DNA of 33,804 bases from a virus. Location of the stretch: positions 1 to 33,804 of IMG/VR virus record IMGVR_UViG_3300006735_000111; one strand, 5' to 3'. Of the stretch, positions 1 through 28,113 are shown piece after piece; position 1 is the first letter of the stretch; the number at the start of each line of letters is the position of its first letter. The position numbers and the translations under genes are program-made. The notes below the pieces were generated by a model. It ran no database searches. It worked only from the letters and a program-made list of their open reading frames with translations, and was not told the DNA's origin.

Positions 1-1143
1 AACTCCGATGACTTTATCAGCAGTACCCGCCCAAGCAGAGCCATAGCTTGATCCGCTGCCAGCGTCGGTGAAGTTGCCGCTGCTGCCAGCAAAAGCGTAC
101 CGACCTGTAGAGTTACCAGACAGATTCGTGACTGCACCAATTTGTGACGGGCTTTCAGCAGTTCTAATCCCTACATTTGGATAAGTAGCAGCCGTTGTGA
201 CTTTAGCCTCAAAATAGAAGCCATCGCTGTCGGTAGGATCAAACGCCATCGTACCTATTGCTGCACTATCTGCCGCAGCGGAAGCAACTAAATTACCATC
301 GCTTAAAGTGTGGCCGTCTACCCAAAGAGGATTAAGAGTGCAGTGGTTGTTAGTCGGGGTATCCGACATCTGATCCGCCGCTGCCAAGCCACTGCTAGAC
401 CAATCATTTCCATTACCGGATTCGTCATCACCTAGATCAGAGCTATCCCGGCCATCTACATAAAATCCGTTAGTTCCAAACGTGAGGTCGCTAACATCCT
501 TCGGAATCCAAACGCCATCGCTGTTGTATTCACCGAAACTGCTCGCATCGGTAGTTGCAGTGCCGTCGAGGAAAACCATTTCCGCAAGGTATCCGTCAAA
601 GAGGTATTTGTTGTCAGGTCCGGCTGAAATGTTCAGCGATCCAATGCGGTGATGTGAATAGCTGCTGCTATTCCAACGGCTACTCAAACTGCTGGAAACT
701 GTACCCGTTGCGGAAAAACTAGTGACTCTACTGCCGTTGATGTACAGGCGCATACGATCACCAGCGGTGCCGTTGGTCGAATCCCAAACTACAACTGCGT
801 GATACCAAGCGGCAACATCGCCCACCCTTTGTGAAGTTGTCCAATTCTGACCACCAATAGCAATAGCCCAAAAACCGGGGGTAGATGCGTCTGTAATAGA
901 TAAGGGGTAATCACTGGTGCTTGACCCGTCAGACGCCGACCAAATAGGAAACCATTGGCCATTTTCATTAGCGTTTGGTCTGCCTCTCTTGACCCAACAA
1001 GAAAGCGTCCACGTTGTCAGCGAGCCGCTAGATGAAAGGCTGCGACTAAGTAGTGCGTCATCGCCCGACTCAAATCGGATCGACTGATCAATCTCATACG
1101 AAGCTGCGCTTGATGGGAAAAACTGTCCGGGTTCCGTAAACAT
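1..1143 (-). CDS. LamG/SPRY-like tail or appendage protein, partial (C-terminus missing)
   Basis: Reading leftwards from ATG at 1143 the frame stays open to the window edge, giving 381 codons with no stop. The N-terminal ~230 residues look like a LamG/concanavalin-type jelly roll: 'WTLSCWVKRG' near the start and 'AAWYHAVVVWD' with 'RMRLYINGSRVTSF' in the middle, the usual signature of these lectin-like domains. The remainder ('TLNPLWVDG', then 'FYFEAKVTTAATYPNVGI') resembles the SPRY-like module that often follows LamG in marine phage appendage proteins. It is the last visible gene of the late operon and starts 5 nt after the tail-fibre stop, so a receptor- or glycan-binding role at the tail is likely. 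This is inferred from domain look-alikes; the C-terminal half is not visible. Confidence 0.75.
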   Translation of the reverse strand, partial: MFTEPGQFFPSSAASYEIDQSIRFESGDDALLSRSLSSSGSLTTWTLSCWVKRGRPNANENGQWFPIWSASDGSSTSDYPLSITDASTPGFWAIAIGGQNWTTSQRVGDVAAWYHAVVVWDSTNGTAGDRMRLYINGSRVTSFSATGTVSSSLSSRWNSSSYSHHRIGSLNISAGPDNKYLFDGYLAEMVFLDGTATTDASSFGEYNSDGVWIPKDVSDLTFGTNGFYVDGRDSSDLGDDESGNGNDWSSSGLAAADQMSDTPTNNHCTLNPLWVDGHTLSDGNLVASAAADSAAIGTMAFDPTDSDGFYFEAKVTTAATYPNVGIRTAESPSQIGAVTNLSGNSTGRYAFAGSSGNFTDAGSGSSYGSAWAGTADKVIGV

Positions 1144-1148
1144 TCAGA

Positions 1149-3089: not shown

Positions 3090-3099
3090 GTCAATTTCC

Positions 3100-5523
3100 T
3101 TAGTTTAAGTAGCTATCCCGAACTGCGTCGGTGGGTGGCAGGTAAAACTCCTGCGCGGTTTCGTCGCGTACACGATCTTCAAAATTACTAGCCCAACCGG
3201 GCCGTAGGTACTCTGACATCTGCCAGAAAAACATATAATCAAGCGCAAGCCGGGTGTAGAAAATGTTCGCACCGGGCATCATGCTTTTCGCCACACGCAT
3301 GCCTTTGTAACTGGCAGCGTCGATATCACCCTCTACCAAAGCGCCCATTGCTTTTAGACTGCGTGCAAACGTACCAAGCACTGGGCCGCCGAGTGCTTCC
3401 GCCAGACCTTCGCCATATCTTTCCTCGCGGCCGACAGCGCCAATCACCAGATCGCCGTAGAACCCAAGCCCGCCAGAGGTTAGCATCGCATCAAACAACG
3501 CTTCCAAACCCGGTTCGCGCGGCTCTTTCCCGGCCGTAAAATCTTTAAGGCTTGACGCAATAAAGCCGTATACAGCCATACTAAGGGCTAGGTGCAGGGC
3601 GTAGCCAACGCGGACGCCTTCGCCTTTCCAAGCGCGGCTCAGTATTTCGTTCCAGTAGCTGACGCTGAATGACTTCAGGTGCATAAACACCATCAGCATT
3701 TCTGTCATTGGCTCCCCGCGCTTGCCCTGCTTTACCAGTGCCATCGTTCTGGCCCCCGGCGTCAGTACGGCGCTGTCGGCAAAGCCACTGAAAAATTCTT
3801 TCATTTTAAGCGCCAAGCCATCGTCCGCAATTGCATCGATGTCGATGTAGCTTTTGCCCTCTACTGTTCTTGCCGCAGCGCTTAGTGCCGAAAATTCGTC
3901 AGCGGTGATGCCGTATGCCGACAATTCCCTGCGAAGCTGCGGATGGATAGCGTCAAAGGATTTACCCATCTGACGCGCTATATAACTTGACAGCGTTAAC
4001 GACACCGACGTTTTAAGGGTGTCGGTCATCCAGTTCATTCCTGTCACGCGCATCACCATACTGACTAGCTGCGACCCTTGACCATCCATTGCGTCGTTGC
4101 CAAGAAAGCGCGATTGAACACCGGCTATAAGGTGATCCATTCCAATGCCAAGGCTGTCGGCAATCTCCCGCTTTTCACCAGTACGTCTGCCTTCAAAAAA
4201 ACCGGCAAGAACGGAGCCGTGCGCTTCTGTAAAATCCGCACCGATATCAGCTAACCGCACAGCGGATGTGCCAACGTCAGCGATAGATGTCAGCGTAGTA
4301 CCGCCAAGAATTGCGGAACTGGAAACATTTTTCAAAAAGTTCACGGCGCGCGCCAGAAAAAACCCGCGTGAGTTGTACGCAGGCAGGATAGACGCCGCTC
4401 CGGTTACTTCGTCAAAAAGCCTGTCCAGATAATCAGTGCTGATTTTGTTGTGCAGCCCAGTTTCATCACCGCGAATTTTGGCTTGCGCACGGCCCACAAT
4501 CTCGTTCAGCATCGCGCGAGGGTTGGGACCAAGATGCGACATGGCGGCAACGCTGCGTGTCATCATATCGATGCCGCCGAAGAATGACGTTCCCACGTCT
4601 GTTCGCGCGTACTTGCCCATATAAGACCACGCGGCGTCACCGTCTTTAAAATGCAGGCTACGATGATTGGTTAGCTTTTTTGCCAGATTTCCCGGCCCTT
4701 TAAAACCAGGCGGTGCTGACAAGTCAGACAGGAAATCATTGCGTTGCTCATTCGTTATAAGCGTGTCCCAGACGTTGCTTAAATATTGTCGCTTGGCAGC
4801 GTCCGTCATGCCTTCGTCAAAAGTCCGACCGTGATCCAGAAGGTCAATGATGTCGTCAATCCACGCCTGCCTGCCAGCTTGGTGAATTTTCAAATCGTCA
4901 TGCGACTGCTTTATCAAATACCCCGGCATGCGCGCGATATCGGCACCAAACTTGTTTGCGGACTTCCGCAGATATTCGTTTGTTTCCTCCATCGCTTCAG
5001 CAATGATGCGCGCTATATCGTTGCCAGAACTGCCGGGGTTATAGCTTTCCTGCAACAGCATCCGGCCGTTCTTGGCCTTCCGCAAAAAACTTATAGCTTC
5101 TCCACGGGCTAAACCCTTTGCTTCCACGCTTCTAAAAAACAAGGCGTAGGCTGTGCGTTCGAATGCTTTCTGCGTCGCCTCAATAGAAGTCTTGTACAGG
5201 CTATTGCCTTCTTCACCCGCCAGAATGCTTTCAAGGAATCTTGGAACATCTTGATCTGGCACTTCGCGCAATCGCTGAATAAAGTGCAGCCGTGTGTTGT
5301 AGTTCAGTGCAGCGATGCGCTTCTCATTAACTGCCGCCCGCGCTTCTCGCGAGATACGCTGTTCCACAGCTTCGGCAACAGCAGCTTCAAGGTTTGTTAC
5401 CTTTTTATCGGCTTGCAGCCGTTCCACAATGCCGGACACTTCATCAAGCAAAACGTTTGCCTGATCGTCGGTAAGATTGGGCGCAGCGGTGCGGATCGTC
5501 GCAAGGCAATCAGACAACGGCAT
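3100..5523 (-). CDS. Internal virion (ejection) protein, gp16-like C-terminal part
   Basis: 807 residues. The long alpha-helical protein resembles the C-terminal portion of T7 gp16-type internal core proteins, with hydrophobic stretches such as 'NVSSSAILGGTTLTSIADVG' and 'LHLALSMAVYGFIASSLKDF', and 'MTEMLMVFMHLKSFSVSYW' near residue ~610. Its start codon overlaps the stop of the upstream 589-residue gene by one base (TAATG), which suggests translational coupling and possibly a single ancestral gene split in two. In the T7 family these proteins form the ejected trans-envelope channel. No lytic transglycosylase motif was seen. Assignment rests on position and overall character. Confidence 0.75.
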   Translation of the reverse strand: MPLSDCLATIRTAAPNLTDDQANVLLDEVSGIVERLQADKKVTNLEAAVAEAVEQRISREARAAVNEKRIAALNYNTRLHFIQRLREVPDQDVPRFLESILAGEEGNSLYKTSIEATQKAFERTAYALFFRSVEAKGLARGEAISFLRKAKNGRMLLQESYNPGSSGNDIARIIAEAMEETNEYLRKSANKFGADIARMPGYLIKQSHDDLKIHQAGRQAWIDDIIDLLDHGRTFDEGMTDAAKRQYLSNVWDTLITNEQRNDFLSDLSAPPGFKGPGNLAKKLTNHRSLHFKDGDAAWSYMGKYARTDVGTSFFGGIDMMTRSVAAMSHLGPNPRAMLNEIVGRAQAKIRGDETGLHNKISTDYLDRLFDEVTGAASILPAYNSRGFFLARAVNFLKNVSSSAILGGTTLTSIADVGTSAVRLADIGADFTEAHGSVLAGFFEGRRTGEKREIADSLGIGMDHLIAGVQSRFLGNDAMDGQGSQLVSMVMRVTGMNWMTDTLKTSVSLTLSSYIARQMGKSFDAIHPQLRRELSAYGITADEFSALSAAARTVEGKSYIDIDAIADDGLALKMKEFFSGFADSAVLTPGARTMALVKQGKRGEPMTEMLMVFMHLKSFSVSYWNEILSRAWKGEGVRVGYALHLALSMAVYGFIASSLKDFTAGKEPREPGLEALFDAMLTSGGLGFYGDLVIGAVGREERYGEGLAEALGGPVLGTFARSLKAMGALVEGDIDAASYKGMRVAKSMMPGANIFYTRLALDYMFFWQMSEYLRPGWASNFEDRVRDETAQEFYLPPTDAVRDSYLN

Positions 5524-7292
5524 TATACTAATCCTTGCAGAACACAGGCTGCCGCCTGCCTAAAGCCATCAGAAGTTTGCTGTGTGCTTTCAATCGCCTC
5601 ATCAGCGGCAGCAAGTTCTGCCTCTGACTCATCGACAACTGATTCAAGTAGCGGCTCGTCTGTCAATTCTGTTTTCAAGCGGTCTACGTCGGCAAGTTGT
5701 TCGTCAGTTTCCTGACGCGCGGTAGCCTCATCTAAATCATCAAACATACGCCGGTCGTCAGCTTCAGCCCTAGCAAGTGCGTCGCGTTCCTGTGCGTCAA
5801 ATATACGGTTGTCCGGCGAGTGCGACCGTTCCAAAGCGTCGGCAGCGTAGTCAGTTTCCGGCACGACGCGGGGGCGGCCGGTGCCTTCGTCTAACGCTTG
5901 GCTTAAATTAAAAGCCGGGAACTCTGTTGGCAGTACAATATTGTCCGCGTTGTTTTTAAAAGCGCTGACAACATTCTTGTCGGTGGTCTGAACAATGAAG
6001 TATTCATCGCCAATCTTGACAGCGGTGCCGCGTTCAATGACCCCTTCTTTAGTCAAACTTTTCCGTGCTTTGTCAGCGGCTTTTTTTGTTTGGTAAGACA
6101 GGTAGCTGCCGTCTGGATTGCGCGCCACCATCTCTGTCGGTACAAACATATCGACCGTGTAGGTGCCGTCTGCGGTTGTGCGAACCTCAGTTCTGATGCC
6201 CGCCCTCTGCAACGTCGTGGCTAGCTGCGCAGCTTCAAAATCAGCCAAACCTTCGGCAGCTTGGGCCGGAAACGCAGCTTCGCCGTTTGCGCCTACATCA
6301 ACAGCGCCAAGACTTTCGCGCGTAGACCGGATAGCTTCTTCACCATCCAGTTCCAAATTCGATGTCCGCACCGGATCAAGCGTAACTTCAAATTTATCAG
6401 CATCGATTTCACGCGCTGTAGCTTCGAAACCAGTAAACTGACTGCCGACGCTGTCGACCGCTGTGCTGTTTTCAAGGTCAGCGCGCAGAATGTAATCCAC
6501 GCCTTGTACCATACGACCATTTGCAAGTTGTCCTACTGTTCCGTTGAAAGCAGACTGCCGGGCTTCCGGCGAAAGATTTTCAATTATTTGCGTGATGTGC
6601 CGCTGTGTGATTGGCGGAACAACTTGGTCTTTTACAAAACCACCGACACCGTGCAATCCGCCGCCAAGTACAGTACCGAAAGCAAGGTTCGCGTATGTGT
6701 CGTACAGGTCGTAATCAGCCTGTCTGTCCTGCGCAGCCAAATACACAATCGGTTCAACCATCGCTGCACCCAGCGCGCCTTCGGCAGCGCCTACGCGTGA
6801 GCGCACAGCAAACCGGCCGAAAGTCGTTGCCTTCTGCCGCAGCATCGCTGCGTAACGTGCTGGGCCGACTATTGGTACAAACGCTGACGCAACGTTGATT
6901 GGGTCAAGCATCGATACAAACAAGCCGCTGCCAAGCATCGCAGCAGATGACGTGATGCCTTCCTCAACGTTTTGCATGACGGCTTGACGCGCTAATTCTT
7001 CGCGCTTCAGGTTTATCATCAGGTCTAGGCTTGCAAGTGTTTCGCCCTCGTCAGGCTCAAGCATGCCAGTCAGATTTGCTTCTTCAATCACAGACGATTG
7101 CTCGTGCAGCGACAGGGGCGGTGCGTTGCCGTCATTTCTAGCTTGGTACAAATCAATCGATGTCAGAACCGATGAAAGCGGGTTCGTCGCGGCCGCCTCC
7201 TGTCCGGCAGCAACGACTGCATCGTATCTCGAAAATGTGAGATCAATCGGTCCAGCGCGCGGGTTGAGCGGTGACGGAAATTCTTGCGCCAT
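5523..7292 (-). CDS. Internal virion (ejection) protein, gp16-like N-terminal part
   Basis: 589 residues. Residues ~110-215 contain hydrophobic segments ('SSAAMLGSGLFVSMLDPINV', 'ANLAFGTVLGGGLHGVGGFV') like those in gp16-type internal core proteins of podoviruses, which insert into the host envelope during DNA ejection. The C-terminal ~120 residues are strongly acidic and helical, rich in Glu, Asp and Ala. The gene sits between the gp15-like and the second gp16-like gene with one-base TAATG overlaps on both sides. I see no catalytic motif. Another possibility is a family-specific core protein unrelated to gp16. Confidence 0.68.
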   Translation of the reverse strand: MAQEFPSPLNPRAGPIDLTFSRYDAVVAAGQEAAATNPLSSVLTSIDLYQARNDGNAPPLSLHEQSSVIEEANLTGMLEPDEGETLASLDLMINLKREELARQAVMQNVEEGITSSAAMLGSGLFVSMLDPINVASAFVPIVGPARYAAMLRQKATTFGRFAVRSRVGAAEGALGAAMVEPIVYLAAQDRQADYDLYDTYANLAFGTVLGGGLHGVGGFVKDQVVPPITQRHITQIIENLSPEARQSAFNGTVGQLANGRMVQGVDYILRADLENSTAVDSVGSQFTGFEATAREIDADKFEVTLDPVRTSNLELDGEEAIRSTRESLGAVDVGANGEAAFPAQAAEGLADFEAAQLATTLQRAGIRTEVRTTADGTYTVDMFVPTEMVARNPDGSYLSYQTKKAADKARKSLTKEGVIERGTAVKIGDEYFIVQTTDKNVVSAFKNNADNIVLPTEFPAFNLSQALDEGTGRPRVVPETDYAADALERSHSPDNRIFDAQERDALARAEADDRRMFDDLDEATARQETDEQLADVDRLKTELTDEPLLESVVDESEAELAAADEAIESTQQTSDGFRQAAACVLQGLV

Positions 7293-10200
7293 TAGTCAGC
7301 ACCTATATTTCTAACGGTGCTGCGCGCTTTCGTTGCCGATTTGTTTGCCTCGCGCACTGTACGCCGTCGGAATTTCAAATCGGCCGCAATTTCTGCATCG
7401 ATGTTCACAATAATCGGTTTGTTGTCTGCATTTAAAACAGGTGAGTTTCTAACGTGTAACTGTGCCTCAGTTCCCCCTTTAATAATTTGCCACTCGCCGC
7501 TTTGCGCGAGTCCGCGCCTTGCAATCCTCATCGCTTCTTCCGGTGTTTGACCGCGAGTAGACGAGAAAAGCGATGTGTCGTATTGGAAGTCAGGGTTTCT
7601 TTCAAACCAGCGAACAAGCGCTGGCTCCGCAACCCCTGCGTCTACACCTTCAGGATTGGCTGATTTGGGGATAATTCCGCGCAATCTATCACCCGTGATG
7701 ATGTGATAGTTGTCAGTTACAATTTCCTTGTACGCGCTTGTCACAGCTTCGTCGGCGGTTGCGGCTGCTGCGGTCTGTAGTTTAGCAAAAGCCAATAATT
7801 CAACACCGCTGCTGATAGACCGGCCCATTGACGCACCCGGTAACTGCCCAGCCACAAACAAACCGGACATCTGCTTAGTCAATTTTTTGTTGAAATCTTT
7901 AAGTAGGGTTGTGTCTATACGCTTCTTAAATTCCTCAGTTGTTCCTTGCTGTATTATTCGGGCAAGATTGGTGCGTAACTGCGGATCGTCTATCGCCATC
8001 AGCATGGATGTGCGGTCGTCTAAACCTTCTTTTTGCAATTCGTTTAATGCGCTGGGCCAATCCTCGCCCAAACCGTCACGCAGTTCCAGAATGCGCTCTG
8101 CGGCTTGTTCCGGTTGCAGGTTTGCGAATTGTTTGACGTAACCTTTTGCCACACCGACAGGGAGCAAACGCTGATCCACAACGCTGATGCCGAGTGTTTC
8201 ATATGCAGCGTCACGCGCTTCAGCATATCCCTTGTATGTTCCCGGATCATTAGGCGCTTCAATAAATTGCTGATACTTCTCTAAAACTTCCTCGTTTGAT
8301 CTGATAGCTGCCGTTGCCGGGTCGTCCAGTCGTGCTTTGATAATTTGCTGAAAGCGTTTGCGGAAATTCGCGGCGCGTTTAGCTTGCCGTTCAGCAGTGT
8401 CGGCGTCGCCGCCGTCCCTGCCTTCGGCCTGCAATTCCGCGTCTAGGGCCGTCAAATCCTCGCGCGACATTCCGCGCAAGTTTGCGGTTTTTTCCGCGTA
8501 TCCGACATCTCCCTCAACTGTTTTTGCCAAAACTTCCGCTGCTTCACGGTCAAACATAAATTCCCTGATGAACTCAGGATCAAGAAGAAGTCGTTGGTCT
8601 TCCGTTATGTCCTGCGCGCGGTTCACCGCACCGAGAACGTCTGTAACCTTTTTTGCAAAAGCCTGGTCAGCAGCCAAGCGTGATTTCGCACGCTTGTTTG
8701 CGATAGCCGCAATTTCGTTCTCAAGCTGTTCTTCTTGGCGTTTATTTCTTTCGGCAAGTTCAAGGTCGCTTGCGTCGCCGCCTTGGTTGCGAACGCGCTC
8801 CAGCAGTTCCGCTAATTCTGCATCTGTCCTCGCTTCAAGATTTTCGGTTTCCTCCGCAAATTGTTTTTCGTCTTTAATCACACGAATAAGCAAATCGGCC
8901 GCGCCTGCGTTGTGCATTGTCGCCCGAATGTGATCTTCATCCAGAAGTTTTCGATCTTCGTCCGTCAACGCCTGCCTGTTGACCATCGCTTTAACGGCCA
9001 GTTTAGCTTCCGACATGAAAAGTTTATCGGCTGCGGCACGCTGGTCGTTGCGTGATTTAATTATTTTATCGCGAAACCGGACAACGCTTTCGGCTTGATC
9101 TCTGTTTCGTTTTGCAACCCTGATATCTGTTGCGTTTTTTCCCTCCAGTGCCAGTTTTTCCGCTAACGCATTTACGCCCGAGTCATCTAATTCTGTGATA
9201 TTGGCGGTTTGGTCTAAAAATTTTCTTTGATCTTCAATGTTTGCAATAAGGTTTTCAGCAACCTTTTTATTGTTGATTGTGCTGCGAATAAACGCTGGGC
9301 TTAACCATTCTTCGTCCTCGGGAGAAAGCGTCTGTCGTGCGTTGAATGCGGCAAACCTTGTGTTAATTTTTTTAATATTTACAGCGTCTTCTGCATTCGC
9401 TTCTGCTTCACGGGCGGCAATAATCTGTTTAAATCTGGTATTAAACCGCACGTATTGGCGATAATTTTGGTCCGCAAGGTCAATATCTTCGGTCGCGTCG
9501 CTGCCTTCGCTTTCAAAGTTAGCGTTAGCGGCGATCAGTTCCGCATTCGACATTTCGTTCATCGCGCCGTAGATGGGCGCAAAAGCAACCTCATCGACAA
9601 CCAGCTTTTTTAACAAGGCGCGCTTCGGCGTGTCGGTCATCATTGTGTCGATGACGTCAGGATCAAGCAGCCTTCTGTCTGGATCGCTGACATCTTGGTC
9701 GCGCTTAACGGCCTGCAAGACAGTTTTAATTTGCTTTTCGGCAGCGTTGTCTGCGGCTGTGGTAGATGTTTTTTTTGCAACGCGCTGGCTTTTTAAACGC
9801 TTTTCCGCTTGCGCTATATATTTGGCGCGCTGTTCACCTGTCAGAGATTTGTATTCGTCGCCAGTGCCTGCCACCTTTATAAAATCAGCAGGGTCGTCGC
9901 GGACATGAAAAGCGGCGCGTCCTTTTTCTGCGTCGTTTTGATATTTGACTAAATATCTTGCGGCTACGTCAGCCGCTATTACCCTGTTAGTCACAGCGCC
10001 AGCTAACATTTCCCGTACATTGTCGAGACGAATTCGACGGTCGCCAACAGTGTCATCACCCCTAACGGCCATAACATTTGCGTCAATACCGCTCACCAAA
10101 TTCGATTCTAGCTTTTCACGGCCGCGACGAATGCCATCTTTTTGAACACCAATCTTGACGCGTGCCACAGCCTCACGCGAAGCTATGTCATAGGTCGCCC

Positions 10201-10522
10201 GTGCATTGTCTGACAGCGACGATCCGGCTTCGTCTATAATTGCTTGCGCACGAATATCATATGACGTGAGCGCCTTTATCGGATCAACGGTTTGTAGCTC
10301 AGTTTCAAGCTGGTTTAATTTAAGTTGAGCGTTGACCTTTGCCTGATGCGCTGCGTCATCATCCGCCGCCTTCAATAGCTGCGCACCGATTTTTGTCAGT
10401 TCAGAACCAGCTTGCATAATGCCTTGGCTGGAAAAATCCTGCATTGGGATGCCGCGTACTCTTGGCACACCGGTAGTCTGCACCGCACGCGATTGCGCGG
10501 TGTAAGTCGGGATTCTGGCCAT
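7292..10522 (-). CDS. Internal virion protein, gp15-like, with four ~120-residue tandem repeats
   Basis: 1076 residues, almost entirely alpha-helical and charged. After an N-terminal ~250-residue region, four consecutive units of ~120 residues can be aligned (about 255-371, 377-491, 496-611 and 616-731). The same element recurs at a fixed phase: 'RRLLDPDVIDTMM', 'EEWLSPAFIRSTI', 'RKLLDEDHIRATM' and 'RLLLDPEFIREFM' at residues ~284, 405, 525 and 645, each followed by an acidic helix and 'A.RN..Q' then 'IIKAR/S'. T7 gp15 forms a helical tube of the ejectosome, and its position just after the gp14-like gene fits that role. The larger size (T7 gp15 is ~750 residues) is largely explained by the repeats. 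Confidence 0.75.
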   Translation of the reverse strand: MARIPTYTAQSRAVQTTGVPRVRGIPMQDFSSQGIMQAGSELTKIGAQLLKAADDDAAHQAKVNAQLKLNQLETELQTVDPIKALTSYDIRAQAIIDEAGSSLSDNARATYDIASREAVARVKIGVQKDGIRRGREKLESNLVSGIDANVMAVRGDDTVGDRRIRLDNVREMLAGAVTNRVIAADVAARYLVKYQNDAEKGRAAFHVRDDPADFIKVAGTGDEYKSLTGEQRAKYIAQAEKRLKSQRVAKKTSTTAADNAAEKQIKTVLQAVKRDQDVSDPDRRLLDPDVIDTMMTDTPKRALLKKLVVDEVAFAPIYGAMNEMSNAELIAANANFESEGSDATEDIDLADQNYRQYVRFNTRFKQIIAAREAEANAEDAVNIKKINTRFAAFNARQTLSPEDEEWLSPAFIRSTINNKKVAENLIANIEDQRKFLDQTANITELDDSGVNALAEKLALEGKNATDIRVAKRNRDQAESVVRFRDKIIKSRNDQRAAADKLFMSEAKLAVKAMVNRQALTDEDRKLLDEDHIRATMHNAGAADLLIRVIKDEKQFAEETENLEARTDAELAELLERVRNQGGDASDLELAERNKRQEEQLENEIAAIANKRAKSRLAADQAFAKKVTDVLGAVNRAQDITEDQRLLLDPEFIREFMFDREAAEVLAKTVEGDVGYAEKTANLRGMSREDLTALDAELQAEGRDGGDADTAERQAKRAANFRKRFQQIIKARLDDPATAAIRSNEEVLEKYQQFIEAPNDPGTYKGYAEARDAAYETLGISVVDQRLLPVGVAKGYVKQFANLQPEQAAERILELRDGLGEDWPSALNELQKEGLDDRTSMLMAIDDPQLRTNLARIIQQGTTEEFKKRIDTTLLKDFNKKLTKQMSGLFVAGQLPGASMGRSISSGVELLAFAKLQTAAAATADEAVTSAYKEIVTDNYHIITGDRLRGIIPKSANPEGVDAGVAEPALVRWFERNPDFQYDTSLFSSTRGQTPEEAMRIARRGLAQSGEWQIIKGGTEAQLHVRNSPVLNADNKPIIVNIDAEIAADLKFRRRTVREANKSATKARSTVRNIGAD

Positions 10523-10540
10523 ATTTATTCCTAAAGCGCG

Positions 10541-11071
10541 TTAGTTGGGGGTGCTTCGCGAAATCTGATAACCACCTTTAGCAAGCGAAGTCAGCGCCTG
10601 AATATTTCCAGAGGTACGCGCTTGGCTTGCTTGCACAAGCAACCCACGACTTGCCGCCGTGTCTTGTCCAGCTTGGGCAAGCTGCGCCCGCGCGCGCGTC
10701 TCGCCTTCGTACAAACGATTTAAGCGATCCAGTTCAAATTCTGCGGCAGCGTCGCCCAAGGTATCAAGCGTAGATCCCTCATTTATCACCACCCCTTGCG
10801 CGGCACGCTGCGCGCTCTGCTGCGCTAACGCAATGCGCCGCCGTCGCTCAATAGTATCCGCGTCCGCTATCGCCGCTTGTTCCGCAACAAGCGCATTATT
10901 TTCGGCAATCTTCGCGTTTTGCGCGGCAATCTGAGACGAATATTTAAGATTAGCAGATTGAAACTGGCTTTGCCGCACTGCGGCGTATGCACTTGTTAAA
11001 GCCGCCGCACCGGCAATAACTGTGCTAGTTGTTAAGGCTGGTAACGCCGCTGCGATTGCTGGAAAGCACAT
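10541..11071 (-). CDS. Internal virion protein, gp14-like
   Basis: 176 residues. It begins Met-Cys followed by an Ala-rich hydrophobic helix ('AAALPALTTSTVIAGAAALT') and then a long Gln/Ala-rich coiled coil ('SQIAAQNAKIAENNALVAEQ'). T7 gp14 likewise starts MC, has a hydrophobic N-terminus and a helical body, and is ejected to form an outer-membrane pore. It lies between the tail tubular B gene and the gp15-like gene, which is the T7 order. Size and composition fit the family. Confidence 0.78.
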   Translation of the reverse strand: MCFPAIAAALPALTTSTVIAGAAALTSAYAAVRQSQFQSANLKYSSQIAAQNAKIAENNALVAEQAAIADADTIERRRRIALAQQSAQRAAQGVVINEGSTLDTLGDAAAEFELDRLNRLYEGETRARAQLAQAGQDTAASRGLLVQASQARTSGNIQALTSLAKGGYQISRSTPN

Positions 11072-11075
11072 ATGA

Positions 11076-13763
11076 TTATCCCGAATGCGTAATAATGCGA
11101 GTTACGATGGCCGTCAGTTCAAACGGTAATGGCTGGGCTTGGCGCACAATAACTTGGCCTTCCGTTTCCCATGAACCGTGGAACTGAACAGTTTTGTCAC
11201 CGCTGAATAATGGTGGCGACATATCCATTGGCGTTGAACCTGCGCGAAACTGCACCTCGTCAAACGACCCGCCGACTGGCGAATACTCCGCACCCAACGT
11301 GTCAAGAAATCTAAACGTTATTTCAAAAATGCGTTTTGTGCGGCCCTGCGCGGAACCATCGTCGCCGCCCTGTTCCGGTCGCAAAGTTTTCATTGTTGAT
11401 GTGTACGGCAAGCCCACTGTTGCTTTTGTAACTGTTGGCGACAGTGACGACACGCTGCCAGAGGTTACAGTTTGATTAGCGTAAACCGAACCGTCGCCCA
11501 ATATGGTGGCCGTTTCGCCGGTCAGGTGATCCAGCCCACTTAACGATGCCGTGGCGGTGCTGTCGTATGTTAGCGCGGAGTCGGCAAAAATTGACGTGAC
11601 CTTATCGCCGCCGCGTGTTGTATCGAACTTCGTTGACATAACTTCGACATAACGCCGCGTTGTGCCGTTGACAGTGCGTTTTATTGACAGCCACAGTTCA
11701 TCTTCGTTTGTACCGGGTATGACAATTGCGGACTCGCAAACTGAATCCTGTCGCAATTGCTGGGTGGACGCTGACGAAGCATCTGCCAGCGTTATCGTTG
11801 CCGATACTAAAGCTTGCGCTTTAGTCGCCGCAAGTTTGATCGTGTTAGCATCTACGACAAGGACAAAGTATTCAGTGCCATCAACTAACCCGCCGACAAC
11901 TTCGCCACCTACCGCGTCGTATGTCACGGCGTCGCCAGTCGAATAACCGTGGCTTGATATTGTTATCTGATTGCTGCCAACGCTTGATGCGGAGTTAAAA
12001 CTTTTAGAATTGTTGCCGCCAAAAACGTGTTCGTGCCAAGCCACCACTTCCTGATCGCGCATGTACGTCAAACCGGCTAACCGGCCATCATCTCGCACAA
12101 CCCAAACTACGCTGTCTGGCTCCTGCTGAAACGTCATTTCAACAAAGCCGTTGCCGCTTACGTCTTCGGCAAGAACCGTAAGGTCAGGAGATACAAAACT
12201 ATCAGAAGCAAAATCAAAACTTAGTTCGCGTAACTTGCGTTGGTGATACTGAATAAACAGCACACGGTTATCGATCCGCACGGGACGTGTGGAATGCACG
12301 CCGCGTGTTCCCTGTCTGACAACGCGAACGTTTGAAGGCGTTACTGCGTCCTGCTGCGTTGTCGATGATAGGGTAAACTCGCCACCAGCGGTTCCAACAG
12401 CAAGCACCTGTCCGGGCGATAGCCACCTGATACTGTTAACTTCGTCCGTCGCAATTGTGTTTGTGATAGCGCCGGTATCCAGCGCGCTCGGCGTAAAGTT
12501 TTCAAAGTCACCCGATTGGCTGCCAAAGATTGTTTGCGGCTGGTCAGTGGTTCCCGCGAAAAACAGGCGTTGTTCAAAAAACGCAACCGCAGACGGATAA
12601 CCAGTTGTGCCGCTAAACGCGCCAAGACGCCAATCCGTTTCTGCGGACGTTCCGCCAAAGGCTTTGTTAACTGTAGCGTCAACGTTTGTAGTGCTGTTGA
12701 TATCGGTGATTGTAGCGTTGCCATACACAACGCCGCCGTCGTCTAGAAACTTCCACGTTGCGCCATTGTCAACGATGTTGTCGCCTTCGCCACTTGGCCC
12801 ACCGGACCCCGCAGACGTACCCGCCTTGATGCATTCGTATACGTTGCCGCTGTTCCGTATGACATTGCCGACCGCATATGCCGTACCCGACGCCCATGCA
12901 GTCGCATGGTGGCCAATCCTAACCATGCGTCCAACGTCAGAAGATATAAAACCACTACCTCCGTTAATACCGGTTACGGCAGACGCGGCAATTGTGATGC
13001 TGCCTGTCGCGCCGCTGGGGGTCAGCGTCGTTGTGGTTATGTTGTCGTCAAGATAAGGCCCGTCTTGAAAGGCCACATCCTCAATTGTCCACGCTGTATG
13101 GCCGGTGCGCGAGAGCTTTCGCGGCGGATAAGACGGATGCGCGATATACATAACGTCCGCTGTTTGCGCGTACTGTAATTGAAACAAATCCGCCGTCGCA
13201 TACGTGGTTGTAATTTGATAAACGCGTGCCGCTGTGCCAGCGCTGGAATATGTGGTGAAACCAGACGTATTAACATCCGTACCGTCAATGTCCTCTAGTT
13301 CAAATGTATTCGTTGTTTTGTTGCTAACCTTAAAATACTTGCCGTTTACCTCTGTCATCCCCACAACGGCACTGATGAAAACAATATCGCCGTCGCTGTA
13401 GCCGTGGCTGGTTGCGGTCACGACGCCGGGGTTAGCCTTGGTTATTGCGCTTATCGTTTTATTGGCTTCAAGGATTGTTCCCTGATCCTTGAAAAACCGG
13501 AAATACAAATTTCCAGCCTCAATGCAATAGGCTTGCTCGGTCGAAAACCGGAACGGTATTAGCCGTGTTTTAGCACCACTTGTTTTAACTTCGTTCACGT
13601 ATTTGGTGCCGGGGCGGCGCGTAATCCCACCGTGCGGCATTACGATTAGGTTCGTTAACTCAGCCGCACCGTTTGCGTATTTGTTTAAATCAACACGACC
13701 TAACAGGCGCGGTGATAACTGTCCTGCGGTAAAGTTTGTTTGTATCGGAGTGACACGCGCCAT
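11076..13763 (-). CDS. Tail tubular protein B (T7 gp12-like)
   Basis: 895 residues. The N-terminus 'TNFTAGQLSPRLLGRVDLNK' followed by 'GGITRRPGTKYVNEV' is the hallmark of gp12-type podovirus tail nozzle proteins. Inserted modules make it longer than T7 gp12 (794 residues). Residues ~103-183 and ~588-665 are two related beta domains sharing 'SHGYS.GD' ('TATSHGYSDGDIVFISAV' and 'TISSHGYSTGDAVTYDAV'). Residues ~289-343 contain a W..GT.Y..GN.....G..Y motif like carbohydrate-binding modules ('AWASGTAYAVGNVI'). It would form the distal tail tube below gp11, and the glycan-binding-like insert may contact the cell surface. Overall identity is firm; insert functions are inferred. Confidence 0.92.
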   Translation of the reverse strand: MARVTPIQTNFTAGQLSPRLLGRVDLNKYANGAAELTNLIVMPHGGITRRPGTKYVNEVKTSGAKTRLIPFRFSTEQAYCIEAGNLYFRFFKDQGTILEANKTISAITKANPGVVTATSHGYSDGDIVFISAVVGMTEVNGKYFKVSNKTTNTFELEDIDGTDVNTSGFTTYSSAGTAARVYQITTTYATADLFQLQYAQTADVMYIAHPSYPPRKLSRTGHTAWTIEDVAFQDGPYLDDNITTTTLTPSGATGSITIAASAVTGINGGSGFISSDVGRMVRIGHHATAWASGTAYAVGNVIRNSGNVYECIKAGTSAGSGGPSGEGDNIVDNGATWKFLDDGGVVYGNATITDINSTTNVDATVNKAFGGTSAETDWRLGAFSGTTGYPSAVAFFEQRLFFAGTTDQPQTIFGSQSGDFENFTPSALDTGAITNTIATDEVNSIRWLSPGQVLAVGTAGGEFTLSSTTQQDAVTPSNVRVVRQGTRGVHSTRPVRIDNRVLFIQYHQRKLRELSFDFASDSFVSPDLTVLAEDVSGNGFVEMTFQQEPDSVVWVVRDDGRLAGLTYMRDQEVVAWHEHVFGGNNSKSFNSASSVGSNQITISSHGYSTGDAVTYDAVGGEVVGGLVDGTEYFVLVVDANTIKLAATKAQALVSATITLADASSASTQQLRQDSVCESAIVIPGTNEDELWLSIKRTVNGTTRRYVEVMSTKFDTTRGGDKVTSIFADSALTYDSTATASLSGLDHLTGETATILGDGSVYANQTVTSGSVSSLSPTVTKATVGLPYTSTMKTLRPEQGGDDGSAQGRTKRIFEITFRFLDTLGAEYSPVGGSFDEVQFRAGSTPMDMSPPLFSGDKTVQFHGSWETEGQVIVRQAQPLPFELTAIVTRIITHSG

Positions 13764-14318
13764 TTATACACGCGACTCCAACCAGGAGTTTTCCGCTTCC
13801 GGCTGCGCCTCTTGCGCATCGATCAAACGGGCCTCTGGCAGCTTACGAGCATACAATTCCTCCATATTAGACATAACGGTTTGCGAAGCAGTTATGTCGT
13901 ATGCAATGTCTGCGGCCAGTCGTAGCGCGTAGGTTTCGACAAACAGCGCATCAAATTTTGTTGGGTCTGTGACTTGAGAAACGTAAACAATGTTAAGCGG
14001 CGCGCCGTCGTCTGTGACAATCTGGCGGCCTTCTATGATCCATTTTTCCGTGGTGTCTACCTCGACAATACGTAGACAATCTGACGGCCAGTCGTAAGCG
14101 TTTGTGTATTTAAACACAGGTGCAGTTGTGTTTGCCGCAAGCGCAGCGCGCTTCATCGCAAAATTCCACGGATGCCCGCGCAACACCTGATCGCGCGATT
14201 GCAAATACATACGGTTTGCAGCGCGCGCCTCCTTCGTATCGTCTTCTAAAGACGTGATCGGTTGCGCACCCAAAAGGGTCAGCGCCCGATTTGAAATCGA
14301 AACAAATGTTGCAGCCAT
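13764..14318 (-). CDS. Tail tubular protein A (T7 gp11-like adaptor)
   Basis: 184 residues from the ATG at 14318 (AGGA nine bases upstream; a TTG lies one codon earlier). The features of gp11-type adaptors are visible: 'NRALTLLGAQPITSLEDDTK' at the N-terminus, then 'ANRMYLQSRDQVLRGHPWNF', then 'AYDWPSDCLRIVEVD' and 'LRLAADIAYDIT'. The protein joins the portal ring to the gp12-like nozzle. It directly precedes the gp12-like gene, with no space between them. Confidence 0.9.
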   Translation of the reverse strand: MAATFVSISNRALTLLGAQPITSLEDDTKEARAANRMYLQSRDQVLRGHPWNFAMKRAALAANTTAPVFKYTNAYDWPSDCLRIVEVDTTEKWIIEGRQIVTDDGAPLNIVYVSQVTDPTKFDALFVETYALRLAADIAYDITASQTVMSNMEELYARKLPEARLIDAQEAQPEAENSWLESRV

Positions 14319-14333
14319 CAATTATTCCTGAAA

Positions 14334-14357
14334 AGGAGAGGGGGGCCGAAGCCCCCC
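14334..14357 (-). terminator. Hairpin with UUCG loop after the decoration gene
   Basis: On the minus strand six G, CUUCGG, six C (the stem is GGGGGGC/GCCCCCC around UUCG) is followed by TCTCCTTTTC. It sits between the probable decoration gene and the tail tubular A gene, so it likely acts as a partial terminator or 3'-end stabiliser that keeps capsid transcripts more abundant than tail transcripts. The U tract is interrupted. Confidence 0.65.
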
Positions 14358-14364
14358 AATCCGT

Positions 14365-14844
14365 TTAGTCAACGCAATAGTGGATAATGAACGAAAGGTC
14401 GCCTTCCGTTCCGCCAGCAGCTTGCATCGTGACGGCTATATAATAATAGCCCCCACCATCGCTAGAAGCACCGGCAAGTTCCCACATCTTTTTACCAACA
14501 GTGTTGATATTGGATGCTTCGTGGCGCACGTCGGCCATAGCACCAGCATCAGCGACTGCCGACGCAAAAGCGTCTTCGTCAACAACGACGCCAGCGGTAG
14601 TATAAATACCGACGTTTACGGTTGCTGATCCGCCCAACGTGTCTGAACCGACAAAAATGTGCGGAACAGTCGCGTTTGATGGGATTGGTGCGAGCATCAG
14701 AATGTCATTGTCATCTGAGTCACCCGCAGCCACAACGATAGTTCCCTGTGCTACACGCATCACGCCATGTAGGTTGGCAACATCATTCATTGTTTGGGGA
14801 GTGGCTTCAAAATTTGAAACCAGCGTTGAGTTAGCTGTACCCAT
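14365..14844 (-). CDS. Probable capsid decoration or head protein
   Basis: 159 residues, rich in Gly, Ala, Ser, Thr, Val and Asp, with a beta-strand pattern ('PHIFVGSDTLGGSATVNVGI', 'GGGYYYIAVTMQAAGGTEGD'). It lies directly downstream of the major capsid gene, where podoviruses of this type often encode a small head decoration or auxiliary protein. A run of G lies before the ATG at a suitable distance. No family is recognised with certainty, so the role is inferred from position and composition. Confidence 0.6.
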   Translation of the reverse strand: MGTANSTLVSNFEATPQTMNDVANLHGVMRVAQGTIVVAAGDSDDNDILMLAPIPSNATVPHIFVGSDTLGGSATVNVGIYTTAGVVVDEDAFASAVADAGAMADVRHEASNINTVGKKMWELAGASSDGGGYYYIAVTMQAAGGTEGDLSFIIHYCVD

Positions 14845-14858
14845 TTTTCATACCCCCC

Positions 14859-16001
14859 CTACGTTGGATCGCATTCGATATAGCCAACCAATTCTTCCTG
14901 CATCCGGGTCGCCCCGATTGTCATGGAAGCAAAAACCTGGGTTGCGTGGTTCTTGTCCGCGCGCTCCGAGATTTTAATGGTCGGTTCGGCACCCATTGCC
15001 AGCTTCATTCCAGCCTTTTGCCAGAACAAAACTTTGTGATCGGAATTGCTATCCGTTCCAATCAATTCGGTGCGGATGAAATTGAAGCCCAAGAAGGTAT
15101 TCACTTCACCCTGTACTACATTATTTTCAATCAGGCTCGTTAGTTCCTGATCCGTCCGAAGACTGCTGCACATTGCCTTTCGACCTGTGCAGATAAGACC
15201 ATATCTCCATCTCAGTGAGATGCTCTGCGCTTCCAGCCACTTGGCTGTACTTCCCGAAGGAATGGTCGTTGAACGTTCCCGTAAAGGGCTTCGCTGCTGA
15301 TTGTCTCTTGCGAGATTTCCCAGCAATTCACAGAGAGTTTACCCGCGCGTCGCCACGCGGGGGCGCTAGTGTTTTGTTAACGCTTTGACAGTCGCAAAAT
15401 CGCTTGACGTGATTTCCGTCTCAGCAAGCAAATTCTGAAGCTGTTTGGCATTGATAATGCAATACCGGTCTTCGTCATCAGCTTCGTTAGCATCCAAGAC
15501 GTTTTTGGCTGCGCGAAGTTTTCCGACGTTTAGTCCCGTATCGGCAGCAGGGGAAACGCCAACCTGCACGTCAACAGTGTTGCTGCTGTCGTAGCTGGTT
15601 GAAGTTCCACCGGCAACGCCGGTAAAGGCCGTTCCATCCGCAGCACTAACGATTGCCGAGTCGATGGCCCTTCCGAGGGCGTTTGAAGCAGCAGTTGCAT
15701 ACGGACCTTGGGGATCAATGAGGAGCCTGACGCGATCCTCACTGTCTATGAGGTCTGCCCAATCGTAATCTTCAAGGCTGACCCGACGCCTAGCATGGGG
15801 TGTATCCATTCTGGGCGTATCGGCGTGGCGGCTAGTACGTAGTTGGGCCGCCGTACTTCCGATTTGCTCAAAGAACGCATTTTTGCCGACTACAGTTTCC
15901 ATGGAAACCGAAGAACGCAGACGCGAACCTTTTTGCTGAACCAGATGTTCGACATTCCCTTTGTACTGTTCCACCATCGCAGTCGTAATTTGCACACTCA
16001 T
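14859..16001 (-). CDS. Major capsid protein, interrupted by a group I intron (exons 15380-16001 and 14859-15118)
   Basis: The unspliced frame starts at ATG 16001 (AAGGAG nine bases upstream) and stops at a TAG at 15366 inside the intron after 211 codons. Its natural continuation lies in a second open stretch ending at 14859. Joining 16001-15380 (622 nt) to 15118-14859 (260 nt) gives 882 nt, exactly 294 codons and a 293-residue product. The joint reads 'FATVKAL|VQGEVNTFLGFNF', which restores a continuous capsid-like sequence. The family is the HK97-fold capsid proteins of podoviruses (N-terminus 'MSVQITTAMVEQYKGNVEHL', C-terminus 'ASMTIGATRMQEELVGYIE'). It follows the scaffold gene, as expected. 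The 5' exon alone would lack the C-terminal third, so splicing should be essential. Exact junctions are inferred from ribozyme pairings. Confidence 0.9.
15119..15379 (-). ncRNA. Group I self-splicing intron (261 nt, no ORF) in the capsid gene
   Basis: All core elements are visible on the minus strand. P1: exon GCGU and intron UA pair with the guide UAGCGC, placing the obligatory U.G wobble at the 5' splice site. P2: CCCGCG/CGCGGG. P3: CTCTGTG (15335-15329) with CGCAGAG (15229-15223). P4: TTGCTG (15326-15321) with CAGCAG (15299-15294). P5: TCTC-GCAA-GAGA. P6: CCC/GGG. The R-type segment GTTCAACGACCA (15274-15263) pairs through GACCAU with the S-type segment AGATATGGTC (15206-15197) as P7. P8 is CATCTC/GAGATG and P9 is CTGCACA/TGTGCAG. 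Two hairpins after the 5' strand of P7 suggest P7.1/P7.2, a subgroup IA feature. The intron ends in G (15119), and ACUA in the guide can pair with UAGU of exon 2 (P10). There is no room for a homing endonuclease. Confidence 0.95.
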
Positions 16002-24941: not shown

Positions 24942-24973
24942 GGCCCGCTGATTCACTTCCGATTCAGCGGGCC
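24942..24973. terminator. Inverted repeat between convergent operons
   Basis: GGCCCGCTGA (24942-24951) and TCAGCGGGCC (24964-24973) form a perfect 10-bp stem with a 12-nt loop between the ends of the plus and minus gene blocks. U tracts are poor on both sides, so termination is only probable. The right arm lies in the last codons of the minus gene. Confidence 0.6.
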
Positions 24974-25402
24974 TCTCACTACCCCGGCGCGCCACAATCG
25001 TTCTGTGGCGGCTTTAAAACGCGTTTTAAGGGTATCTGGCGCGATGCCCATGCCATCGCTGACGCGTTTCCATTGCGGGCCACGACTGCGCGGCCATCCA
25101 TGTTTTTGCGCGCTGAATGCAACGGCCATGCAAACGCGAGCGTCGGCAGGGTCAGCGGCCCATAGGCAGCCGATTACTTTATCCAGCCGGTCAATCTCGC
25201 GGGCGGCTGGCGGGCCTAGCCGAACGGGTTCCTCATTGTAGCCGTAGGCAAGGTTCGCATCTCGTACCCAGTCCGGCCAGCCGGTCGCGTGGCCGCGAGG
25301 TCCGGCGGCTGGCAATCGGCTAATTGTCCGCGCGGCCTCGAATAGCACATCCTCAAATTCGTCTAGGGAGAAAAATGGTGCGTTTTCAAAATGGGATGTC
25401 AT
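24953..25402 (-). CDS. DUF6362-like HTH protein
   Basis: 149 residues from ATG 25402, overlapping the previous gene by 17 nt; codons further upstream only shadow that gene. 'FEAARTISRLPAAGPRGH', then 'EIDRLDKVIGCLWAADPADA', then 'PDTLKTRFKAATERLWRAGV' follows the layout I associate with DUF6362: an RLP segment, a segment counting on D/W, and an HTH-like end. A DNA-binding regulatory role is plausible. It is the last gene of the early operon. Confidence 0.65.
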   Translation of the reverse strand: MTSHFENAPFFSLDEFEDVLFEAARTISRLPAAGPRGHATGWPDWVRDANLAYGYNEEPVRLGPPAAREIDRLDKVIGCLWAADPADARVCMAVAFSAQKHGWPRSRGPQWKRVSDGMGIAPDTLKTRFKAATERLWRAGVVRGPLNRK

Positions 25403-25958
25403 CGTCCAGCTTTCCCTTGTTTTTGATCGCTGACACTTCGGCACCGGGGAACGCAACCTTCGCTTCGCTGGGCAGATTTTTTGAAAAATGGTCGAAATTA
25501 TCCACGATGCGGATGATCTCTGCCATCGTCCACACTGCGACGCCGGGGTTTTCCTTTCCGTACTGATGCGCTTCCGCCACGTCGCGGACAAATGCGTGCG
25601 CCCTTCCGCCATCATCACGCCATGTCCATGCCGTGATCGAAAGCGCTGTGTGGCCGCGCTCCGTCGCTTCGCGGTCTAATGCTTCCCATCCGCGCTGCAT
25701 GATCGCAGCCCGCTTGGCTACCTCTGTTGCATCGTTTTGAAAAATGGACTCATCCAGCTTTACCTTCGCACTGGCAAACCTGGCAGCCGTGTCCACGCTG
25801 ACCAGCGTTTCCAATCTGTCGACGCCCCATCTGTCCTCCATCTGCCGCACAGTTTCATCCAGCGGCTGAAGCGCATGAAAAACCGTCTCGTCCGTCCGAC
25901 GCAGGAAGCTGTCAGGATTAGTAATCGGGTCTGGTCGCTGGAACCTTTTTTTAGACAT
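25386..25958 (-). CDS. Early protein with an SSB-type C-terminal tip
   Basis: 190 residues. The body ('AARFASAKVKLDESIFQNDA', 'ALSITAWTWRDDGGRAHAFV') matches no family I know. The last residues 'KGKLDDDIPF' reproduce the terminal DDDIPF of bacterial SSB, the peptide that recruits SSB-binding proteins such as RecO, RecQ, PriA and Exo I. It is preceded by a Lys/Asn-rich linker, as in SSB. The gene lies just after the primase-helicase gene and a 145-nt intergenic region. Inference: it recruits or blocks host SSB partners. A remote single-strand-binding role is also possible. Confidence 0.7.
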   Translation of the reverse strand: MSKKRFQRPDPITNPDSFLRRTDETVFHALQPLDETVRQMEDRWGVDRLETLVSVDTAARFASAKVKLDESIFQNDATEVAKRAAIMQRGWEALDREATERGHTALSITAWTWRDDGGRAHAFVRDVAEAHQYGKENPGVAVWTMAEIIRIVDNFDHFSKNLPSEAKVAFPGAEVSAIKNKGKLDDDIPF

Positions 25959-26103: not shown

Positions 26104-28113
26104 TCAATGGCTTACCTCCGTTTTGCGGTTTTTCACAATTCGGTATCCAACACGCGCCTGCATCGTGATTTCACCCTCGTTTTCAAGGTCACGAACGGCC
26201 CTCATTACGACCCCCTGACGCTCGTTTAGCAGCGTCGGCAGAGCGGTCGAAATCTTCCTGCCGGTACGCATCTGGAAGGGCAATCCGGCGTTAAATGCGT
26301 CATCGATTGCGGCGATAATTTTGTTCTTCAGCGCCCTGTTCTGGATGCGATCCATCTGCCCCGGCGACGATGGCAACTGATAGACGCCCTGATCCCACAG
26401 CAACGTCATGTCGGTGCTGTCGCCGGACTGTGAATAGTTCGATTTCTTTCGGCTCAGTATCCGCACATCATCGTCGGTATCACTGCGTGAAAAATAGGCG
26501 CGCGCCCTGACACTATTCTCCCAGGCGGTGCTGCCAGACATGCCTGTGCCGGATGCCATGCCGGACATGGACGGGTGCGCTAGCATCAGCACCGTCGCGT
26601 CGTATTTGGTGCAGAAGCTGCCCAGATACGTCTTGATAAACGTGTTGACCTCACGCCGAATGTTTTCGTTGCCGCCGAACGTGTCGGCCGCTGTGTCGAT
26701 CACCAGCAGGATTTCTTCTGCGTTTTGTTCTGCTTTGACCGCCTGCACTTGCTCACATAGCTGGCCGTAGAACTCACCCGGCTTGTCCTCGCCTTGCTGC
26801 GGCCATGTGACAAGGATGTTTGTTTCGCCCACTCTGGGCCATATCAGCAGGTTGGATGGGCCGCTGTCGGTTATCTCGTTGACCTGTAGCCACTCGTTGA
26901 TCGATAGCTGCCTGCGGCTTATCTCCAACGCGTCGTCCTCGCACAGCACCATCAGCACCGGCATTTTCTTTGTCGTAATGCCCATAAATGGTGTGCCGGT
27001 CGCGACACAGTTCGCGAGTTGATGCACCAGCAGCGTCTTGCCCACGCCACCCTGCCCAAACAGCACCGAAACGGCTTGGTTGGGAAACCATTGGTCAAGC
27101 AGCCACTCGCGCTGTGGTAGTGGTCCTCGAATCTCTGACGCACGCAGTAGCGGCGAGGGCTGCTTGTTCTGTATGGGCTGGTCAGGTTGCACGTCAGCAG
27201 GGCCGGGGTGCTGTGGCTCCCGCACTTCCCGCAGGTTGAAACCGTATTCTGATGCCCAGTGGAAAATGGACCCGGCACCGATGTGTTTGACGGCCTTTAT
27301 GCTGCGCCACGCGCGGTCTGTTTCTGCTTCGTCGTACTTGTCGGATCGTTTCGACCAGCGATGCGCGAGATCGTAACCATCGTCCCCCAGCGCCCCCTTG
27401 ATGGCATGCAGCGTCTGCACCCAGTCATCATAATGTTCGTCATCATTGGGCAGAAACGCGAGTGCGGTTTCGATCTCAGCAATCTCGCCGTCCAGTTCTT
27501 TCAGGTTCAGCGCTGGCGGTGGTGTGGTTCTGACCTCACTGACCCTGCCCTTCAGCGGGCCGTACTTGTCCAGTATGGTTGCGGACGCGTGCAGGAAGTC
27601 TTGCAGGTCGTCCGGCGTGACGGTTTCCAGGTCTTCAATGGGGAAGTCCATGATGGTGTCGTCGGGCCAGAAATACTTTTGTTGTGTGTCGGGGTGTATG
27701 CCGCTGGCGACGAATTGCTGTCCCTCTGCCAGCACTTCGACCTGACAGTCTGCACCTTCTATCTCATAGGTGCCGGTCTTGCGCTTGGTCATTGGCTCCG
27801 TGCAGCGGAACATCATCAGGAACTTTGGCTGCTTGCCCACGCGGCGCGGTGACTTGCCCAGCGTGTCTTCAATCAATGCTTTTATGGCGTTGGATAAAAA
27901 TGGATTGACCACATCGACATCGATGGCGACGAGGTTGTGTTCACCGCCGCACAGCACGCCGATACCGGCGTCACCGTGAAGCGCAAAGTCCTTTGCCGTG
28001 TCTGGTCGTTGCGACCAGCCCGTCAGGATTGGCTTCTTGCCGTTCACAGGCGTGGTGTCATAGCCAAGGTCGGCCAGCTTGGGCGCGAATGTCGCGTAGC
28101 GATCAGGCATCAT
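26104..28113 (-). CDS. Bifunctional prim-pol / RepA-like helicase
   Basis: 669 residues. N-terminal prim-pol: 'GDAGIGVLCGGEHNLVAIDV' with the DxD pair at residues 65/67 and 'EVLAEGQQFVASGIHP' (His140). Residues ~200-295 form a PriCT-type helical linker. C-terminal helicase: Walker A 'GQGGVGKT' (353-360), Walker B 'ILLVIDTAAD' (D473) and 'VLMLAHPSMSG' as sensor, in the RepA/KaiC-like AAA_25 style. A winged-helix end follows ('ALPTLLNERQGVVMRAVRDL'). This would prime and unwind at the fork while host DNA polymerase III synthesises, since no polymerase gene is visible. Start ATG 28113 or 28110; SD weak. A terminator-like hairpin precedes it. Confidence 0.92.
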   Translation of the reverse strand: MMPDRYATFAPKLADLGYDTTPVNGKKPILTGWSQRPDTAKDFALHGDAGIGVLCGGEHNLVAIDVDVVNPFLSNAIKALIEDTLGKSPRRVGKQPKFLMMFRCTEPMTKRKTGTYEIEGADCQVEVLAEGQQFVASGIHPDTQQKYFWPDDTIMDFPIEDLETVTPDDLQDFLHASATILDKYGPLKGRVSEVRTTPPPALNLKELDGEIAEIETALAFLPNDDEHYDDWVQTLHAIKGALGDDGYDLAHRWSKRSDKYDEAETDRAWRSIKAVKHIGAGSIFHWASEYGFNLREVREPQHPGPADVQPDQPIQNKQPSPLLRASEIRGPLPQREWLLDQWFPNQAVSVLFGQGGVGKTLLVHQLANCVATGTPFMGITTKKMPVLMVLCEDDALEISRRQLSINEWLQVNEITDSGPSNLLIWPRVGETNILVTWPQQGEDKPGEFYGQLCEQVQAVKAEQNAEEILLVIDTAADTFGGNENIRREVNTFIKTYLGSFCTKYDATVLMLAHPSMSGMASGTGMSGSTAWENSVRARAYFSRSDTDDDVRILSRKKSNYSQSGDSTDMTLLWDQGVYQLPSSPGQMDRIQNRALKNKIIAAIDDAFNAGLPFQMRTGRKISTALPTLLNERQGVVMRAVRDLENEGEITMQARVGYRIVKNRKTEVSH

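Follow-up and report, generated by a model that had tools for sequence, protein, structure and literature searches.

The window, i.e. the whole stretch of DNA analysed here, is a 33.8-kb IMG/VR phage record from a marine-type virus of bacteria. A morphogenesis block of the podovirus type is encoded on its minus strand and comprises terminase, portal, a scaffold/protease-like protein, the major capsid protein (MCP), the tail tube and internal virion proteins. On this strand the MCP gene is present in two pieces, separated by a 261-nt group I intron without an open reading frame (15119-15379). Exon 1 (15380-16001, with the ATG start at 16001) covers codons 1-207 and the first base of codon 208, and exon 2 (14859-15118), for which the intronless homologue L002 is 97% identical, covers the remainder of codon 208 to the stop. 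When precisely 15119-15379 is excised, the 622 nt and 260 nt of the two exons form a single frame of 293 amino acids across VKAL/VQGEV (the slash marks the exon junction here and below), and the junction in the spliced message reads AAAGCGT/TAGTACAG. The PHROG profile phrog_3437, 'major head protein', covers residues 1-291 of the spliced protein (E 3.5e-75), which is thus a full-length member of this family. Cultured HTVC010P-type Pelagibacter phages have MCPs that are 49-58% identical to it, all of them uninterrupted. Prophage relatives were sought in GTDB contigs as a clue to the host, and none were found.

An Infernal search gives a match to the Rfam group I model RF00028 at 15166-15389 on the minus strand, with 62.0 bits (E 1.4e-13), where the gathering score is 50, covering the model in full length (1-253). 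This is the sole Rfam match in the whole window. The borders of the intron are U15380/U15379 at the 5' end and G15119/U15118 at the 3' end. P1 (15363-15383) is formed by GCGU of the exon and UA of the intron (15383-15378) pairing with the guide UAGCGC (15368-15363), with a U.G pair at the splice site, while the P10 strand of the 3' exon, UAGU (15115-15118), pairs with ACUA at 15370-15367. The catalytic core (15223-15335) contains P3 (15335-15329/15229-15223), P4 (15325-15320/15300-15295), P5, P6, the 5' strand of P7 (15267-15263), P7.1 and P7.2. It is followed by P8 (15222-15208), the 3' strand of the guanosine-binding helix P7 (15201-15197) and P9 (15192-15166), i.e. the region 15166-15222. 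All pairs drawn for P1-P9 are standard, and P2-P9.2 as well as P10 are present. P7.1 (UUCC/GGAA) and P7.2 (CAGCC/GGCUG) lie between the 5' strand of P7 and the 3' strand of P3, a position that is the mark of subgroup IA, typical of phages. The intron is therefore of the IA type, the usual phage class. More than half of the viral group I introns are reported to belong to IA2 (PMC11835236).

The structure is conserved among relatives. In an alignment of 22 related introns, 90.2% of the cells pair and 37 of the 63 pairs change on both sides. The pairing score of this alignment is reached by none of 500 shuffles, and sliding the partner columns by 1-3 positions lowers pairing to 34-43%. Pairing is 100% in P3, P4 and P7 across the 22 introns, and each of these helices shows two to three changes on both sides of a pair; P7.2 covaries at all five of its pairs, and P1 shows compensation at four of six pairs, with the U.G pair invariant in 22 of 22. 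The folding of the window intron RNA also beats that of 200 out of 200 shuffles (z -3.0). The splice sites of L113, L095, L109 and L157 were set by eye, 4-6 nt off the start of the covariance-model match, and L164 was left out as a possible misassembly. An in-frame UAG stop is found at nt 12-14 of the window intron (15366-15368), within P1 and ahead of the ribozyme core, and a first in-frame stop that starts at most 17 nt from the 5' splice site is common to all 13 introns checked.

By analogy with known group I introns, guanosine-driven splicing can be predicted for this RNA. The MCP pre-mRNA would fold, and an exogenous guanosine would attack after U15380, at a position set by P1 (GCGU and the guide ACUAGCGC). 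The 3' OH of the exon would then attack after the terminal G15119, positioned by P10, and the ligated mRNA would give the 293-residue capsid protein, while the UAG within P1 would halt translation ahead of the core. A first-pass annotation, made from the sequence alone, had described a small ORF-less group I intron here, with P1-P9, the U.G pair, the terminal G and P10, whose exact removal restores the 293-residue frame. Every one of these elements is present, and the description is borne out by RF00028, P1-P10, covariation and an intronless allele; the Rfam search and the comparison with intronless relatives that it proposed both came out in its favour. Its view that full-length capsid protein needs intron removal agrees with the spliced and unspliced frames, and capsid production probably depends on splicing. 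It is codon 211 that needs correction: the unspliced frame ends there, as it had said, but the junction lies inside codon 208, after nt 622. Its suggestion that the intron sits in a conserved site failed, as the residues around 208 are only at the 28th percentile of conservation in the MCP family. The idea that insertion sites are the most conserved MCP positions is likewise contradicted by the conservation ranking.

Empty alleles are common in the family of the window. Of 234 distinct MCP loci covering residues 48-215, 212, L002 included, lack an insert, and 22 have one or more introns. A split is thus present in about one in ten capsid genes of the clade, and such genes will be overlooked or cut short by gene callers and capsid markers. 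The closest intronless MCP is L002, with 95.1% DNA and 96.9% protein identity to the spliced window gene. The 43 differences between the two are clustered: nt 589-678 hold 29 of them, against 7 each in nt 1-588 and nt 679-879 (permutation p 5e-5, the lowest value that the test can give). The flanking kilobases are mostly ~94-95% identical. The dense block (15063-15413) comprises 90 nt of coding sequence, 34 nt on the 5' side and 56 nt on the 3' side of the insertion site, so exon co-conversion at the insertion site is found for this pair. From the pattern of differences, we read this sharp block as the footprint of gene conversion as left by homing, and the converted allele could be either of the two, L002 included. 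After the MCP gene, the gene for a 159-residue protein with a weak virion structural match (14365-14844) is only 40-60% identical to L002, against ~95% on both sides, and has been replaced or has strongly diverged. This exchange is a separate event from the intron block.

A second pair looks different. The intron-bearing L108 and the intronless L291 are 97.8% identical, and at the junction AAAGCTC/TTG of L291 corresponds to AAAGCGT/TAG of L108, a synonymous change that restores the P1/P10 match. Two further differences lie at most 22 nt upstream of the junction, and there is no wide tract. Hence either the tract was very short or the changes were selected.

Movement between more distant phages is also evident. 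An identical intron of 249 nt is present in L147, L153 and L163, while the nearest 60-nt exon bins of L147 and L153/L163 have an identity of only 0.68 (5') and 0.65 (3'), and the exon runs shared at the junctions are 22 and 10 nt. An unchanged 249-nt intron in MCPs of ~65% DNA identity means recent movement. Judged from these comparisons, the intron is mobile although it encodes no endonuclease. The first-pass annotation had proposed that the intron had lost its mobility or moves in trans; immobility does not agree with the conversion footprint and the recent horizontal movement, and movement in trans is the better half of that guess.

A homing endonuclease acting in trans, free-standing or from a co-infecting phage, could cut the intronless MCP, after which repair would carry the intron in, comparable to the free-standing endonuclease of cyanophages that acts at the psbA intron site; in our judgement the arguments for and against this explanation are evenly balanced. 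The conversion footprint of 34 + 56 nt is what it would leave, and precedents for trans-homing are cited in PMC2993671. Among the relatives, an HNH_3 gene above the cut-off is found only in L086/L088/L097, just downstream of the intron-bearing MCP, and is a candidate for an endonuclease that acts in trans. In L086 it is an open frame of 92 residues between the MCP and the tail gene (~2876-3151), whose product has the HNH_3 domain, and L095 has a sub-threshold HNH_3 match ~6 kb from the MCP. However, searches with four Pfam models (HNH_3, HNH, GIY-YIG and LAGLIDADG), which novel nucleases would escape, found none in the window, neither in the intron, as the first-pass annotation had noted, nor elsewhere in the record, and most intron-bearing records have no HNH, GIY-YIG or LAGLIDADG match. 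Further, an endonuclease in trans does not alone explain the ectopic sites without flanking homology.

Introns are found in at least eight positions of the phrog_3437 MCP, at codons 48/49, ~50, 53, 69/70, ~84, ~164, 205 and 208, and site 205 has at least two intron subtypes. The MCP genes of L085, L111, L144/L170, L152, L168/L145, L169 and L382 contain two group I introns each, and the two in L085 are of different subtypes. Close relatives occur at different sites in the intron tree: those of L092 (site 53) and L109 (site 69) are 97% identical. Similarly, L085 has at site 164 an intron with 96% identity to the one at site 69 of L087, and both have the same guide sequence. The DNA match between L085 and L087 extends from four exon bases (CCAT) before the intron to its end, whereas the exons are only 66-69% identical. 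Their targets, CCAT/TGCAA and CCAT/GCAAG, have only the P1/P10 bases in common. In L085, site 69 is intact and without an intron, and in L092 it is likewise empty. From these alignments we consider both pairs to be ectopic moves of nearly unchanged introns inside one gene. An intron at a heterologous site, as expected of reverse splicing, is therefore seen in L085/L087, i.e. in close kin, and not at site 208 of the window. The site-208 introns form a single group in the intron tree, and spread to the same site is therefore the supported history for the window intron.

It can be speculated that spread occurs mainly by reverse splicing, in which a freed intron enters the capsid mRNA at any P1/P10 match and the cDNA recombines into phage DNA. 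The abundance of the capsid mRNA, which exceeds that of every other late message, would then account for the confinement to capsid genes. We see this as possible but on the doubtful side. It agrees with the finding of introns of 96-97% identity at three codons (53, 69 and 164), with the L085/L087 targets that share just the P1/P10 bases while the original site is empty, with the minimal exon sharing between L147 and L153, and with the clear non-capsid exception being a tail-fibre gene (L096). However, reverse splicing does not predict the 90-nt exon conversion between the window and L002, and the empty site of L291, which has C and not U before the junction, could not accept the intron unchanged. 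Reverse transcriptase (RVT_1) was not found in any of 33 intron-bearing records, but the host could still supply this enzyme.

The confinement itself was studied with two core-sequence patterns in 2.9 million viral contigs, P3-P5 (32 matches) and P7-P3-P8 (42 matches). Their union is 60 stretches, 58 of which are in MCP genes, a count inflated by the preference of IMG/VR for contigs with hallmark genes such as the MCP. All 28 records newly matched by P7-P3-P8 exceed the Rfam cut-off, as do 32 of 34 records made up of the matches of the first pattern and earlier MCP introns. The host MCPs belong to at least six PHROG families: the phrog_3437 type, the SU10-type phrog_1328, phrog_267 (a T7-like group and another group), phrog_9953, phrog_14242 and phrog_1357. 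The exceptions are the tail-fibre gene of L096, the one clear case, and L093, a 53.8-kb record unrelated to the others with six weak RF00028 matches. An unrelated core pattern for other phage introns finds MCP hosts for at least 25 of 79 proteins, counted by cluster representatives and inflated by the same preference; many of these introns contain endonuclease ORFs, and other host genes are mixed in. A capsid bias as a trait of all phage introns was thus rejected. In near-complete genomes (the window, L072, L082, L095 and L150), the single RF00028 match is the one in the MCP, which argues that the IMG/VR bias is not the whole story. It is notable that capsid genes are frequent intron hosts generally and near-exclusive for the lineage of the window intron. 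A stronger proposal, a tiny group I intron lineage specialised on phage capsid genes that transposes at the RNA level by reverse splicing into capsid mRNA at any short match, strikes us as unlikely; if true, RNA-level transposition would explain both the capsid confinement across unrelated MCP families and the changes of site within the gene.

An immobile remnant, gained anciently, inherited vertically and lost repeatedly, would fit the single tree group of site-208 introns and the lack of an ORF. We find it very improbable, as 249 nt are unchanged between MCPs with a ~65% exon match near the junctions, the conversion block is sharp, and different sites are nested in the intron tree. A reading without any intron, such as a capsid gene that is broken or frameshifted, programmed bypassing or an assembly artefact, is hardly credible given the covariation, the Rfam score, the U/G borders with P10, the identical insert in independent contigs and its precise absence in relatives. 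A coding insertion or frameshift was ruled out by the in-frame stops in the insert together with this precise absence, and the presence of the intron in the independent contigs L046 and L110 rules out an assembly error.

We suggest, with high confidence, that the window contains a functional ORF-less IA-type intron of a capsid sub-lineage, which is exchanged at the same site with copying of exon sequence. Same-site spread between phages would be a DNA-level exchange that copies a short flanking exon stretch, and the enzyme would most likely be an endonuclease in trans or from a co-infecting phage. Close kin now and then enter the capsid gene elsewhere, at positions that have in common just the few bases recognised by P1/P10. 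For such events, reverse splicing into abundant capsid mRNA is a candidate route, or else illegitimate repair. The near-identical (96-97%) introns at different codons, their intact empty sites and the near-identical alleles without an intron provide defined donor/target pairs by which reverse splicing could be separated from an endonuclease in trans.

Introns in capsid genes and phage introns without an ORF are already known. The Cluster J mycobacteriophage LittleE has a group I-type intron in its major capsid gene, with U before the intron and G at its end as here, and its splicing was shown by RT-PCR and N-terminal protein sequence (PMC3706429). However, that insert is 819 bp long, contains a LAGLIDADG-like endonuclease gene and is a single site in a single phage. 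A capsid-gene intron in the lactococcal phage Tuc2009 is cited in the same paper, which also describes a 265-bp insert in a tail gene of the mycobacteriophages BAKA/Optimus, with splicing shown by RT-PCR (PMC3706429). The latter also interrupts a virion gene and lacks an endonuclease gene, but the gene is a minor tail gene and there is no sign of several sites in it. The introns of T4 td, nrdB and nrdD and other phage introns with endonucleases share the P1-P10 architecture and homing with exon co-conversion (Hausner et al. 2014, PMC3984707). However, they move by their own endonuclease and sit in nucleotide-metabolism genes, while the window lineage has none and sits in capsid genes. The window intron, 261 nt without an endonuclease ORF, carries no intron-encoded enzyme of the I-TevI type. 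The gut Jug phages have many ~206-nt introns, with splicing backed by metatranscriptome reads (PMC12363816); they have ~18 per genome in many genes (terL, nrdD, polymerase), whereas the window lineage has one or two, all capsid, in the records searched. Fungal rDNA introns spread by reverse splicing are similar in that related introns occupy different sites of one highly transcribed locus, but that locus is ribosomal RNA in eukaryote nuclei and not a protein-coding phage capsid gene (PMC1299323). Our searches of the open-access literature turned up no earlier description of an intron lineage dedicated to capsid genes, nor of a capsid gene with several intron sites. The setting of these endonuclease-free introns is a highly expressed essential gene of small phages.

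Some further features of the window were observed. The contig L110 (15,536 nt) has the intron at the exact coordinates of the window (15166-15389), and both contigs share the left end (1-15536 of the window), which may be a true genome terminus. Elsewhere, the window encodes a DUF6362 protein (24953-25618), a Prim-Pol/AAA replication protein (26104-28113) and a small HTH repressor-like protein (30196-30405).
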